From: Clostridiales bacterium
GTDB taxonomy: Bacteria; Bacillota; Clostridia; Christensenellales; Aristaeellaceae
Direction of reading: 5' to 3'
Length of the DNA: 64,000 nucleotides
Assembly: GCA_016930575.1 (NCBI GenBank)
Contig: JAFGGL010000036.1
Coordinates: 33,516-97,515, forward strand
Shown: one piece after another, positions 11,224 to 15,995 of the stretch
Numbering within the stretch: position 1 is the first letter of the stretch
Layout: each line of letters begins with the position of its first letter
Program-made: the position numbers and the translations under genes
The notes under the pieces: generated by a model
Databases searched by the model: none
The model's input: only the letters and a program-made list of their open reading frames with translations
Told to the model about the DNA's origin: nothing

Positions 11224-11916
11224 ATGGAATACTCCAGAGAAGTGGAAGAAATGGCATGTGTGAAGCAGGGCCCGAATCACGGTCCGGCTCCCATCCCCGA
11301 AGAGGGCGCGTGGGTGCAAAGCCGCCAGATAACGGATATCAGCGGATTCACCCATGGCGTCGGCTGGTGCGCGCCGCAGCAAGGCGCTTGCAAACTGACT
11401 TTGAATGTCAAGAAGGGCGTTATCGTGGAAGCGCTGGTGGAGACACTCGGATGCTCGGGCATGACGCATTCCGCGGCAATGGCCAGCGAGATACTGCCCG
11501 GGAAAACCATATTGGAAGCGATGAACACCGACCTCGTTTGCGACGCCATCAACACCGCGATGCGCGAGCTCTTTTTACAAATCGCCTACGGGCGTTCGCA
11601 AAGCGCCTTTTCGGAAGGCGGCCTGGAGATCGGCGCGGGGCTGGAGGATTTGGGCAAAGGCCACAGAAGCCAGATCGGCACGATGTACGGGACGCTGAAA
11701 AAAGGCCCCCGCTATCTGGAAATGGCGGAAGGCTACGTGATGGAACTCGGGCTTGACAAAGACCGCGAGATCATCGGGTATAAGTACGTGCATCTGGGCA
11801 AGATGATGGAGGACATCCGCAAGGGCGTAGCTCCCAAGGAAGCGCTGGAGAAGAACACGGGAACCTACGGGCGCTTTAAAGATGCGGTCGAAACCATCGA
11901 TCCGCGTAAAGAATAG
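11224..11916 (+). CDS. NifU-N/IscU-like iron-sulfur scaffold-type protein
   Basis: GACKLTLNVKKGVIVEALVETLGCSGMTHSAAMASEILPGKTILEAMNTDLVCDAINTAM; always recognised as partner of the GGGtGRT gene. Confidence 0.8.
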   Translation: MEYSREVEEMACVKQGPNHGPAPIPEEGAWVQSRQITDISGFTHGVGWCAPQQGACKLTLNVKKGVIVEALVETLGCSGMTHSAAMASEILPGKTILEAMNTDLVCDAINTAMRELFLQIAYGRSQSAFSEGGLEIGAGLEDLGKGHRSQIGTMYGTLKKGPRYLEMAEGYVMELGLDKDREIIGYKYVHLGKMMEDIRKGVAPKEALEKNTGTYGRFKDAVETIDPRKE

Positions 11917-11937: not shown

Positions 11938-12936
11938 ATGGCTGTATTTGAAGGATATGACCGCCGGATGCCGCATATCGAGAAAGTGCTTGCGGAATAC
12001 GGTTTTGATAATTTGGAATCGATGGCGAAATTCGTAAAGGACAAAGGCGTCGACGTACGTGCCATCGTGCTTGGCGTGCAGAAGATCGCGTTTGAGAACG
12101 CCGTCTGGGCATACACACTGGGCGCTGCGATCGCGATGAAAAAGAACGTGAAGAGTGCCGCGGACGCGGCCGAGGCCATCGGCGTCGGCCTGCAGGCGTT
12201 CTGTATCCCAGGCTCGGTCGCCGACCAGCGCCAGGTGGGCCTGGGGCACGGCAACCTGGGCGCGATGCTGCTGCGCGAGGAGACCGGCTGTTTTTGCTTC
12301 CTCGCCGGGCACGAAAGCTTCGCAGCCGCCGAGGGCGCCATCGGCATCGCGCGCACCGCCAACAAGGTGCGCAAGATCCCTCTGCGCGTGATCCTGAACG
12401 GACTCGGCAAGGACGCCGCCTATATCATCAGCCGCATCAACGGCTTTACCTATGTGAAAACGGAAATGGACTATACCAAAGGCGAAGCCAAGGTCGTTAA
12501 GGAAACGCCGTATTCGGACGGCGAGCGCGCCAGGGTGCGCTGCTACGGCTGCGACGACGTGGTGGAAGGCGTTTCAGTGATGATGCAGGAGCACGTGGAC
12601 GTATCCATCACCGGCAACTCCACCAACCCGACGCGTTTCTGCCACCCGGTGGCGGGCACGTACAAGAAGTGGTGCGCGGAAAACGGCAGGAAGTATTTCT
12701 CCGTCGCAAGCGGCGGCGGTACGGGCCGCACCCTGCATCCCGACAATATGGCCGCCGGCCCCGCAAGCTACGGCTTTACGGACACGCTTGGCCGCATGCA
12801 CTCGGACGCGCAGTTCGCGGGCTCGTCCTCCGTGCCCGCCCACGTGGAGATGATGGGCCTCATCGGCATGGGCAACAATCCCATGGTCGGCGCGACCGTC
12901 GCGGTTGCCGTTGCGATTGAGGAAGCTACGAAATAA
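11938..12936 (+). CDS. GGGtGRT family protein
   Basis: Contains the signature SVASGGGTGRTLHPDNMAAGPASYGFTDTLGRMHSDAQFAG. Confidence 0.9.
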   Translation: MAVFEGYDRRMPHIEKVLAEYGFDNLESMAKFVKDKGVDVRAIVLGVQKIAFENAVWAYTLGAAIAMKKNVKSAADAAEAIGVGLQAFCIPGSVADQRQVGLGHGNLGAMLLREETGCFCFLAGHESFAAAEGAIGIARTANKVRKIPLRVILNGLGKDAAYIISRINGFTYVKTEMDYTKGEAKVVKETPYSDGERARVRCYGCDDVVEGVSVMMQEHVDVSITGNSTNPTRFCHPVAGTYKKWCAENGRKYFSVASGGGTGRTLHPDNMAAGPASYGFTDTLGRMHSDAQFAGSSSVPAHVEMMGLIGMGNNPMVGATVAVAVAIEEATK

Positions 12937-12951
12937 GAATTCTATGTAATC

Positions 12952-12978
12952 AAAAAAGACCTCCGAATTCGGAGATCT
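12952..12978. terminator. Palindromic (bidirectional) terminator, copy 1
   Basis: AAAAAAGACCTCCGAATTCGGAGATCTTT; same core as the copy at 14073-14102 with one stem mismatch (ATCTTT versus GTCTTT). Confidence 0.85.
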
Positions 12979-13047
12979 TTATTACACTTCTGTTCTGTTT
13001 ACTATTCTTGATACGCCTATGCATCTTCGATAACACATATAGGATTC

Positions 13048-14034
13048 TTATAATATTTCATTTGCTTTTGGAACGCTATACGATATTCCAATTATTCTAT
13101 TGTCTCTATTTCTTGTTACTCGAATCTGCTTTAGTGAATCATCAATAGAAAAATAACCTGCTTGCGCCATATCGTAAATATAGTCTTCCTTTATTTTTGA
13201 ATCTGCACTTTCCCTGTATTTTGCTTTCATTACTAACAATGGTGGTAAAAGAACACCATGTGAATAATAAGGTTCTTGGCTATCCTCTGTAGATAATGAC
13301 ATAGTTATTATACCAATAACTCCACCATTCACTGAAATAATTGGCCCCCCACTCATTCCATGATCATATCTAGCATTTGTCCTGAAACACGGAAACTTTA
13401 ATAATATAGAATCTCTTTTATTACCATATATTTCTACAATTTCGCCTTTTGATGCATTCAAGCTGTTGTTTATTGTTCTTTGAAATCTCGATAAATCCCC
13501 ATTGAAAGTAACTAACTTTTTACTGTATCCAATTGCCATAGTTTGTTGATAAAGCTTTGGAATTCCGGGACTTAAGGTAAATTGCATTAAAGGTACTCTG
13601 ACATCATCTATTGTCGGTATGTCTATTGTGAGTAAAGCTATATCCGATTCATTTGAATACGTAATATTGGTTATTGGTAATAAACCGCCAAAATACTGAC
13701 CCTCAACTAATACTATGTTTGTACAGTATAATACATAAAGGTTTAGCTCAGTGAAATCAATAACTCCATTTTTAACAACTCCTTCTCGCTCTTTTTTATC
13801 AGTTAAGTCTTTTAGTACATGTTTAGCAGTTAATAAAAAGCCGTTACTACTAATACAAAAAGCTGTACCTAATAAATCCAGACTTTTTTCATTGTCATGT
13901 ATAATTGGGAAAACGGATGTTTGAAAAAAATGAGGTTCAAGAAGTCCCACTTGAAAGTTTTTCTCTTCAAAAGACAAATGACATCTGCTACTCATAATTT
14001 CATCCTTTATTTCTTTCATAGACTTCGATTTCAT
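13048..14034 (-). CDS. Trypsin-like (S1/HtrA-like) serine protease, AT-rich, probably horizontally acquired
   Basis: Triad context GFLLTAKHVLKD (His), NESDIALLTIDIP (Asp), DHGMSGGPIIS (Ser); start at 14034 preceded by GGAGG; the longer ORF to 14184 runs out of frame through the SPFH gene. Confidence 0.85.
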   Translation of the reverse strand: MKSKSMKEIKDEIMSSRCHLSFEEKNFQVGLLEPHFFQTSVFPIIHDNEKSLDLLGTAFCISSNGFLLTAKHVLKDLTDKKEREGVVKNGVIDFTELNLYVLYCTNIVLVEGQYFGGLLPITNITYSNESDIALLTIDIPTIDDVRVPLMQFTLSPGIPKLYQQTMAIGYSKKLVTFNGDLSRFQRTINNSLNASKGEIVEIYGNKRDSILLKFPCFRTNARYDHGMSGGPIISVNGGVIGIITMSLSTEDSQEPYYSHGVLLPPLLVMKAKYRESADSKIKEDYIYDMAQAGYFSIDDSLKQIRVTRNRDNRIIGISYSVPKANEIL

Positions 14035-14072
14035 AGGAGAAACCTCCGTAACTAAAATTACTATTCTATCTG

Positions 14073-14102
14073 AAAAAGACCTCCGAATTCGGAGGTCTTT
14101 TT
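14073..14102. terminator. Palindromic (bidirectional) terminator, copy 2
   Basis: Perfect 30-bp palindrome AAAAAGACCTCCGAATTCGGAGGTCTTTTT. Confidence 0.9.
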
Positions 14103-14111
14103 CATTATTGT

Positions 14112-15170
14112 TTATTCCGATTTCTGTCCGCACTCCGGGCAGAACTTGGCGTCCGCATCCATCTTCGCGCCGCACTTGGTGCATGTCTTTTCCTGCGGAG
14201 ACTGTGCAGCGCCGCAGTGGGGGCAGAACTTGCTGCCCTTGGCGATCCGCTTGCCGCAGCTGACGCAGGGAACAGTCTCCGGCTGCGTCGCCGGCGGCTG
14301 GTTAGCGGCGTTCATGCTCTGGGCGAACATCTGCCCCATCGCCGCGCCCGCGCCCATACCGACGCCCATGCCGGCCATTCCCCCGCCGCTTTGATTGTTT
14401 GCGGCCTCGCGCATTGCTTCGGCGGCCTGGTACTGCGTATACTTGTTCAAATCGCCCGCGACGCCCATAGAGGTGCGCTTGTCGATAGCCTTTTCCACGT
14501 CCTCCGGCAGGCTGATGTTTTCGATGATGAAATTTGTCAGCGTAAGCCCCAGCGCTTCCACCTGCGGGTTGAGCGCCTTTTGCACGAACGCCGAGAGTTC
14601 CTGATAGTTGGCCGCCATATCCAGGGCGGGAATCTTGCTCTCGGCGATCGCGTCGCTTAAGCCCGAGATCAGCGTGCGTTTGATCTGGCCTTCCACATCC
14701 TCCACGGTGAACATGCCGTTGGTGCCGAAGACCTCTTTCAAAAACACTTCGGGATCCTTCACGCGGAACGCGAAGATGCCGAACGCGCGGATACGGATCA
14801 TGCCGAATTCGGCGTCGCGCATCATCACCGGATTGCTCGTTCCCCACTTGCGGTCCAGGAACTGCTTGGTGTTGACGAAGTACACATCCGACTTGAACGG
14901 CGACTTGAAGCCGAACTTCCACGCCTTGAGCGCCGTCATGATCGGCATGTTGCCGGTGGACAGCTCGTAGCGGCCGGGCTCGAAGATATCGGCGAGCTGC
15001 CCTTCGTTGACGAACACGGCCAGCTGGCTTTCGCGCACCGTAAGCTGCGCGCCCATCATGATCTCTTTGCCGTCCATGTCGTAGCGGTGCACCATGGTGT
15101 TCTGGGTCGAATCTTTCCATTCGATAACGTCGATAAACTGGCTTGTTACGATCTTTTTAAATAATCCCAT
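14112..15170 (-). CDS. SPFH-domain protein with C-terminal double zinc ribbon (YdjI-like)
   Basis: MGLFKKIVTSQFIDVIEWKDSTQNTMVHRYDMDGKEIMMGAQLTVRESQLAVFVNEGQ...; CVSCGKRI..CPHCG, CTKCGAKM..CPECG. Confidence 0.9.
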   Translation of the reverse strand: MGLFKKIVTSQFIDVIEWKDSTQNTMVHRYDMDGKEIMMGAQLTVRESQLAVFVNEGQLADIFEPGRYELSTGNMPIMTALKAWKFGFKSPFKSDVYFVNTKQFLDRKWGTSNPVMMRDAEFGMIRIRAFGIFAFRVKDPEVFLKEVFGTNGMFTVEDVEGQIKRTLISGLSDAIAESKIPALDMAANYQELSAFVQKALNPQVEALGLTLTNFIIENISLPEDVEKAIDKRTSMGVAGDLNKYTQYQAAEAMREAANNQSGGGMAGMGVGMGAGAAMGQMFAQSMNAANQPPATQPETVPCVSCGKRIAKGSKFCPHCGAAQSPQEKTCTKCGAKMDADAKFCPECGQKSE

Positions 15171-15182
15171 GCCGGTATCCTC

Positions 15183-15995
15183 CTATTTTTCTTCGCTCCA
15201 TGTGCAATCTGCCGCGAAATCTATCAGCCCGTTGAGCGTTTTAAGTTCAGCCAGGCTCATTGTAAGACCTAAATAATGCTGTATCTGTCCGATCGTTTCT
15301 TCGATATACGCCTTTACCTTCATATCCGGCGTGACGCCCGCCGCGCCGCAAGAGCGCGGGCTGAACACGATGCGCACTTCTTCGGGCGAAACGACCGCGA
15401 TGTGGATGTTCATCATCTCGTACTCTTCCCCGAAGAAATTCCTGAGCGCCGTCGCCAGCCGTTCGCTGCCGTAATGCCAGCGCTCGGTAATGAACATATC
15501 CCCCTGCGGTATTGAGATCCGGGCGAAAAAGCACGGGCTCTGCGGATCGTCCGAGCAGCGGTACAGACGCTGCTGCTTCAATATCTCTTTCTTCGTCGGC
15601 GCAAGACGGGACAGCAGATACTTCATCCAGCGTTCACGGGCGGCGGAGAAATTCGTTTCCTCGTTATATTCGACATCCGAATTATCGGTATGGATCTGGT
15701 TTAAAAGCAGCTCAACCTCGCGGATGATTGTAAGCTGCTGCTCCTTATCGTCTATAATCATGAAAACCGGGATCTGCGGCTGCTTTTCATCCATCCATTG
15801 TTCGAGCGTTTCAAACCCTTCGTCGATCCCGATGGCGTCGATATGGTGCTTGCGCAAGCATTCCACCGCTTCCTCAAAGGTCTTTCGCACCCGCGGCGGC
15901 TTGAAGCCCATCGTTTCCCATCCGTCGGCATCGCTGAACATCTTCTCTATCGTCGGCGACTTCGTTACAATCAGGAGCCTATACACAAACGTCAA
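15183..15995 (-). CDS. Hypothetical protein with receiver-like N-terminal domain
   Basis: YRLLIVTKSPTIEKMF...HHIDAIGIDEGFETLEQWMDEKQPQIPVFMIIDDKEQQ pattern resembles a degenerate REC fold; directly upstream of the SPFH gene. Confidence 0.6.
   Translation of the reverse strand: MTFVYRLLIVTKSPTIEKMFSDADGWETMGFKPPRVRKTFEEAVECLRKHHIDAIGIDEGFETLEQWMDEKQPQIPVFMIIDDKEQQLTIIREVELLLNQIHTDNSDVEYNEETNFSAARERWMKYLLSRLAPTKKEILKQQRLYRCSDDPQSPCFFARISIPQGDMFITERWHYGSERLATALRNFFGEEYEMMNIHIAVVSPEEVRIVFSPRSCGAAGVTPDMKVKAYIEETIGQIQHYLGLTMSLAELKTLNGLIDFAADCTWSEEK

Follow-up and report, generated by a model that had tools for sequence, protein, structure and literature searches.

A single AT-rich protease gene between two copies of one putative terminator: possible duplication of the GGGtGRT terminator as a foreign gene came in

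We have analysed a stretch of 64,000 nucleotides (the window) from a Clostridiales bacterium, in which one AT-rich gene for a predicted serine protease is the sole gene between two nearly identical palindromes, T1 and T2. The joint explanation that we favour, at a probability of roughly one half, is that the terminator of a resident gene for a GGGtGRT protein was duplicated as the foreign protease gene came in. The palindrome would then be a rho-independent terminator native to GGGtGRT. The protease gene would have been placed 3′ of GGGtGRT in a single event or in two closely linked ones, which left a second copy of the terminator, and perhaps some 40 bp of the GGGtGRT 3′ end with it, beyond the protease. 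T2 would now terminate the SPFH gene, and the protease would be transcribed away from T2, by a weak promoter or by read-through from SPFH, and terminated by T1. We infer the common origin of insertion and duplication; as to the mechanism, 3′-end integration, short-homology recombination and template switching would each do. If insertion and duplication were one event, the locus would show cleanly how a single gene can enter a chromosome with terminators already insulating it, and the GGGtGRT 3′ end would be worth examining for accessory-gene capture in the family. The evidence at present is one locus, with no empty site.

The features of the locus are listed in Table 1. GGGtGRT and SPFH are convergent, with each palindrome just past the end of one of them, and the immediate neighbours of the insert are housekeeping genes. 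The gene coordinates of a first-pass annotation of this DNA were right, and the families have been assigned with Pfam. GGGtGRT is paired with a NifU-like neighbour (11224-11916), an arrangement kept in a relative of the same genus (G003), and SPFH with a gene for a 270-aa protein that has no Pfam match (15183-15995), an arrangement kept across the genus. The wider gene order around GGGtGRT and SPFH is not conserved in the genus relatives.

Table 1. Features of the protease locus, in window coordinates
Feature	Position	Strand	Remarks
GGGtGRT protein gene	11938-12936	+	PF14057, Pfam E 1.3e-187; resident neighbour
T1, putative terminator palindrome, copy 1	12953-12980	.	28 bp; hairpin folding
Trypsin_2 serine protease gene (predicted), AT-rich, 328 aa	13048-14034	-	PF13365 E 2.9e-13
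Candidate degenerate copy of GGGtGRT 3′ end and 3′ UTR	14033-14072	+	resembles 12913-12952
T2, putative terminator palindrome, copy 2	14073-14100	.	28 bp; hairpin folding
SPFH/Band 7 protein gene, zinc ribbons	14112-15170	-	PF13421, Pfam E 1.4e-91; resident neighbour

The protease gene stands apart from its GC-rich surroundings, as had been noted at first sight. Its GC content is 0.319 (31.9%), against 0.569 (sd 0.020) in the 25 other genes of the window, its GC3 is 0.226 (22.6%) against 0.732, and its codon index is 0.32 against 0.63-0.78; a composition equal to the genome mean, which the first-pass annotation had named as grounds for giving up its proposal, is not what we find. The AT-rich stretch spans the DNA from the GGGtGRT stop codon to that of SPFH. 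We scanned a 333-kb sample of the organism's own genome (14% of it) for hairpins and AT-rich stretches. No other stretch of this sample has a GC content as low as that of the protease segment (the all-N sequence L108 left out), and the exact repeats at the edges of the other AT-rich stretches reach at most 12 bp, compared with 22 bp here. The gene has apparently been imported.

The protein matches the Trypsin_2 profile with 51.2 bits, against a cut-off of 27.6, and the trypsin-like triad claimed earlier can be read from the sequence in the expected motifs (H72, D131 and S228, the last in GMSGGP). By profile and His/Asp/Ser triad it is a predicted member of the Trypsin_2 proteases. Close relatives were not found in genome contigs, viral contigs, phages or plasmids, and searches of the family, order and phylum gave only weak partial matches of a generic trypsin or HtrA-like kind. 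The protein shares the triad, the GMSGGP motif and the Pfam family with HtrA-like proteases, but the similarity is mostly confined to the region of the serine motif, and it differs from them in having no PDZ match in Pfam, no signal peptide evident by eye and no close homologue. A single-sequence structure model was unusable (pLDDT 35). A link with defence, raised in the first-pass annotation, was not borne out: the PADLOC matches are partial trypsin matches of 27-36 bits and the neighbours are housekeeping genes, and we have rejected a known anti-phage defence protease (Lamassu LmuA, RT-protease).

The two palindromes have the sequence AAAAAGACCTCCGAATTCGGAG(A/G)TCTTT and are identical at 27 of 28 positions, the exception being one G/A difference. 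That the same palindrome occurs twice, with starts 1120 bp apart, is thus confirmed. Dinucleotide shuffles lead us to expect 0 matches. In the organism's own genome (2.35 Mb) there are two copies, T1 and T2; there is no match in 307 family relatives with two mismatches allowed, and the 20-bp core has no match in the GTDB r220 contigs. These counts reject a genome-wide repeat, and equally the repeat common at convergent gene ends that had been considered as an objection: the palindrome is unique to this locus. One viral match (L088) is a chance one that overlaps a ribosome-binding site. Of the 32,384 hairpin pairs in the 333-kb sample, T1/T2 ranks first with a score of 26, and no other exceeds 18. 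Because the palindromes are unique to the locus and no other hairpin pair in the sample is nearly as alike, T1 and T2 share descent, and an independent origin is very unlikely. The longest exact stretch that they have in common is 22 nt. That the two copies are nearly identical and that GC content shows no amelioration speaks for a recent event. Recency is not assured, as selection on terminators could also preserve their likeness.

The palindromes are predicted from their folding to act as terminators. T2 forms a perfect stem on both strands, at -24.5 kcal/mol on either (z about -8), and has the stable G+C stem and U run of a rho-independent bidirectional terminator on both. T1 has these features on the minus strand, where an unbroken stem of -18.0 kcal/mol is followed by a U6 tail, and more weakly on the plus strand (-14.2 kcal/mol). 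At its G-to-A difference the minus strand, that of the protease, still pairs as G-U, and the plus strand, that of GGGtGRT, has one A-C mismatch. T1 would terminate GGGtGRT (+) and the protease (-), and T2 would terminate SPFH (-) and so set it apart from the protease. The hexamers TGTAAT (window 12945-12950) and ATTACA (12981-12986) flank T1 and can extend its stem.

As had been pointed out, the protease start codon is close to T2, at a distance of 38 nt. A good ribosome-binding site is present (GGAGG, 14043-14047). Of the hexamers resembling a -10 element the best, TAGAAT, lies 28 nt ahead of the ATG, and no acceptable -35 was found. Read-through of T2 could give some low-level expression of the protease.

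GGGtGRT and SPFH are not adjacent in the genus relatives examined: they are found on separate contigs, in different surroundings, and each is followed by a distinct hairpin of its own. The ancestral bidirectional terminator, shared by the two genes, from which the first-pass annotation had started is thus not supported. Of its proposed terminator-mediated cassette gain, the foreign composition and the shared descent of locus-unique terminators stand, and the whole is plausible, as a single case. T1 looks native to GGGtGRT, because in G003 a similar hairpin, GAGACCTTCGATTTTCGGGGGTCTC, follows this gene equally far from the stop codon. GAGACCTTCGATTTTCGGGGGTCTC is the best match to the palindrome among 57 gene tails, a match not far outside the reach of unrelated hairpins. 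Neither an empty site nor a close sister genome was found in the collections searched.

The flanks of the palindromes may tell where the second copy came from. The ATTCTAT that was said to be shared on the left is present at both, but not at the same offset: it starts at 12939 and 14063, 1124 apart, which implies a 4-nt indel. A third copy lies at 13094, and a shared 7-mer in such a position occurs in 4-6% of shuffled or random flanks. A gapped comparison of longer left flanks is somewhat stronger, with the left flank of T2 aligned in register with the last GGGtGRT codons and the 3′ UTR. The score of this 40-nt flank is reached by GC-matched 40-mers in 0.1-2% of cases, depending on the scoring, and after multiple testing (six flank comparisons) the resemblance is marginal. 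That this place holds a degenerate copy of the 3′ end and UTR of GGGtGRT is thus only suggested; the ribosome-binding site of the protease gene lies in the same 40 nt, as would a -10 element of its promoter. The right flanks of T1 and T2 are not related (p 0.63). As the left flanks align and the right ones do not, the source of the duplicated unit would be GGGtGRT and not SPFH.

One specific form of our favoured explanation is that the locus is the remnant of a site-specific integrative element with the GGGtGRT 3′ end and terminator as attachment site. T1 and T2 would lie in attL and attR, the flank of T2 would be the displaced 3′ end, and the integrase and other cargo would have been lost and the protease left. 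Elements and islands integrated at gene 3′ ends do resemble the locus in their AT-rich foreign cargo, in a direct repeat that includes the terminator and in the possible in-register displaced 3′ end, and AT-rich accessory DNA lies past GGGtGRT in several relatives, G003 among them. The locus differs from them in having one gene and no integrase, and no empty or circular form was seen. With no recombinase in the insert either, a marginal flank similarity and no repeated GGGtGRT 3′ end in relatives, we consider such a remnant rather unlikely.

We have also compared the locus with other types of mobile element. The insert has no transposase and no terminal inverted repeat, and there is no attC at the palindromes. 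An insertion sequence or MITE is rejected by the inverted-repeat score (p 0.77) and by the protease being the sole gene of the insert. Integron cassettes likewise consist of a gene followed by a palindromic site, but the locus has no integrase and neither palindrome has a GTTRRRY/RYYYAAC core (one core-like match is at 13802), so this type is rejected too. In the dif (pdif) modules of Acinetobacter plasmids a gene unit lies between 28-bp palindromic sites, with conserved XerC/XerD arms around a 6-bp centre (PMC6449649). The arrangement, length and symmetry agree with the locus. In contrast, T1 and T2 are G+C hairpins with tails of A/T, as terminators are, and they are the only two sites in the genome; by eye, their arms do not show the conserved inner motif of XerC/XerD.

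Alternatively, the terminator may have been duplicated independently of the protease, by a rearrangement that joined SPFH to GGGtGRT and copied the terminator through template switching or gene conversion, the protease having arrived earlier or separately. GGGtGRT and SPFH being unlinked in relatives, a rearrangement did take place in one lineage or the other. Moreover, GGGtGRT of G003 (L090) is followed directly by a different AT-rich gene, a 435-aa orphan, without a repeated terminator, which shows that an accessory gene at this place need not carry the signature. However, the insert edges coincide with T1 and T2, and several independent events would be needed within one kilobase, which makes this course of events distinctly unlikely.

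The first-pass annotation had itself proposed recombination through the terminator; a unit of protease plus terminator would have come from a close relative, by way of short homology at the palindrome. The gene-plus-terminator architecture and the nearly identical copies agree with this. Against it, 28 bp offer little homology for RecA-dependent exchange, no donor with the terminator is found in the 307 family genomes or, by its core, in GTDB r220, and the 333-kb sample holds no other terminator-bracketed gene; we hold this route to be improbable. An assembly artefact joining two sequences at a common short palindrome is the least credible reading: the source assembly is fragmented (78 contigs) and T1 and T2 share an exact stretch of up to 22 nt, but a substitution tells the copies apart and their flanks differ, so they are two real sequences, and a 28-bp repeat is normally no obstacle to assembly from 150-base reads.

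Returning to duplication upon gene entry, one may ask whether the GGGtGRT 3′ end with its terminator is an attachment or short-homology site that captures single AT-rich accessory genes as gene-plus-terminator units, insulated in transcription on both sides. We regard this generalization as doubtful. The check for other palindrome-bracketed genes came back empty for the 333-kb sample, and no precedent for terminator-bracketed capture was found in open-access papers, within a limited coverage. The 3′ side of GGGtGRT is rejected as a proven hotspot, since AT-rich DNA occurs there in some relatives and the DNA downstream of SPFH, taken as control, does not clearly differ. A strong score as a repeated GGGtGRT 3′ end in G048 (L050) was also rejected: from about 2560, just past GGGtGRT, this sequence holds a GC-rich repeated motif, CCCCCTAGGGG...GGGTTGTCGGTTACGGCGTAGG, unrelated to the palindrome. 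In two further relatives the DNA just past GGGtGRT is AT-rich and accessory, with a NERD nuclease-related gene in one (G012, L132) and an ISL3 transposase in the other (G103, L041).
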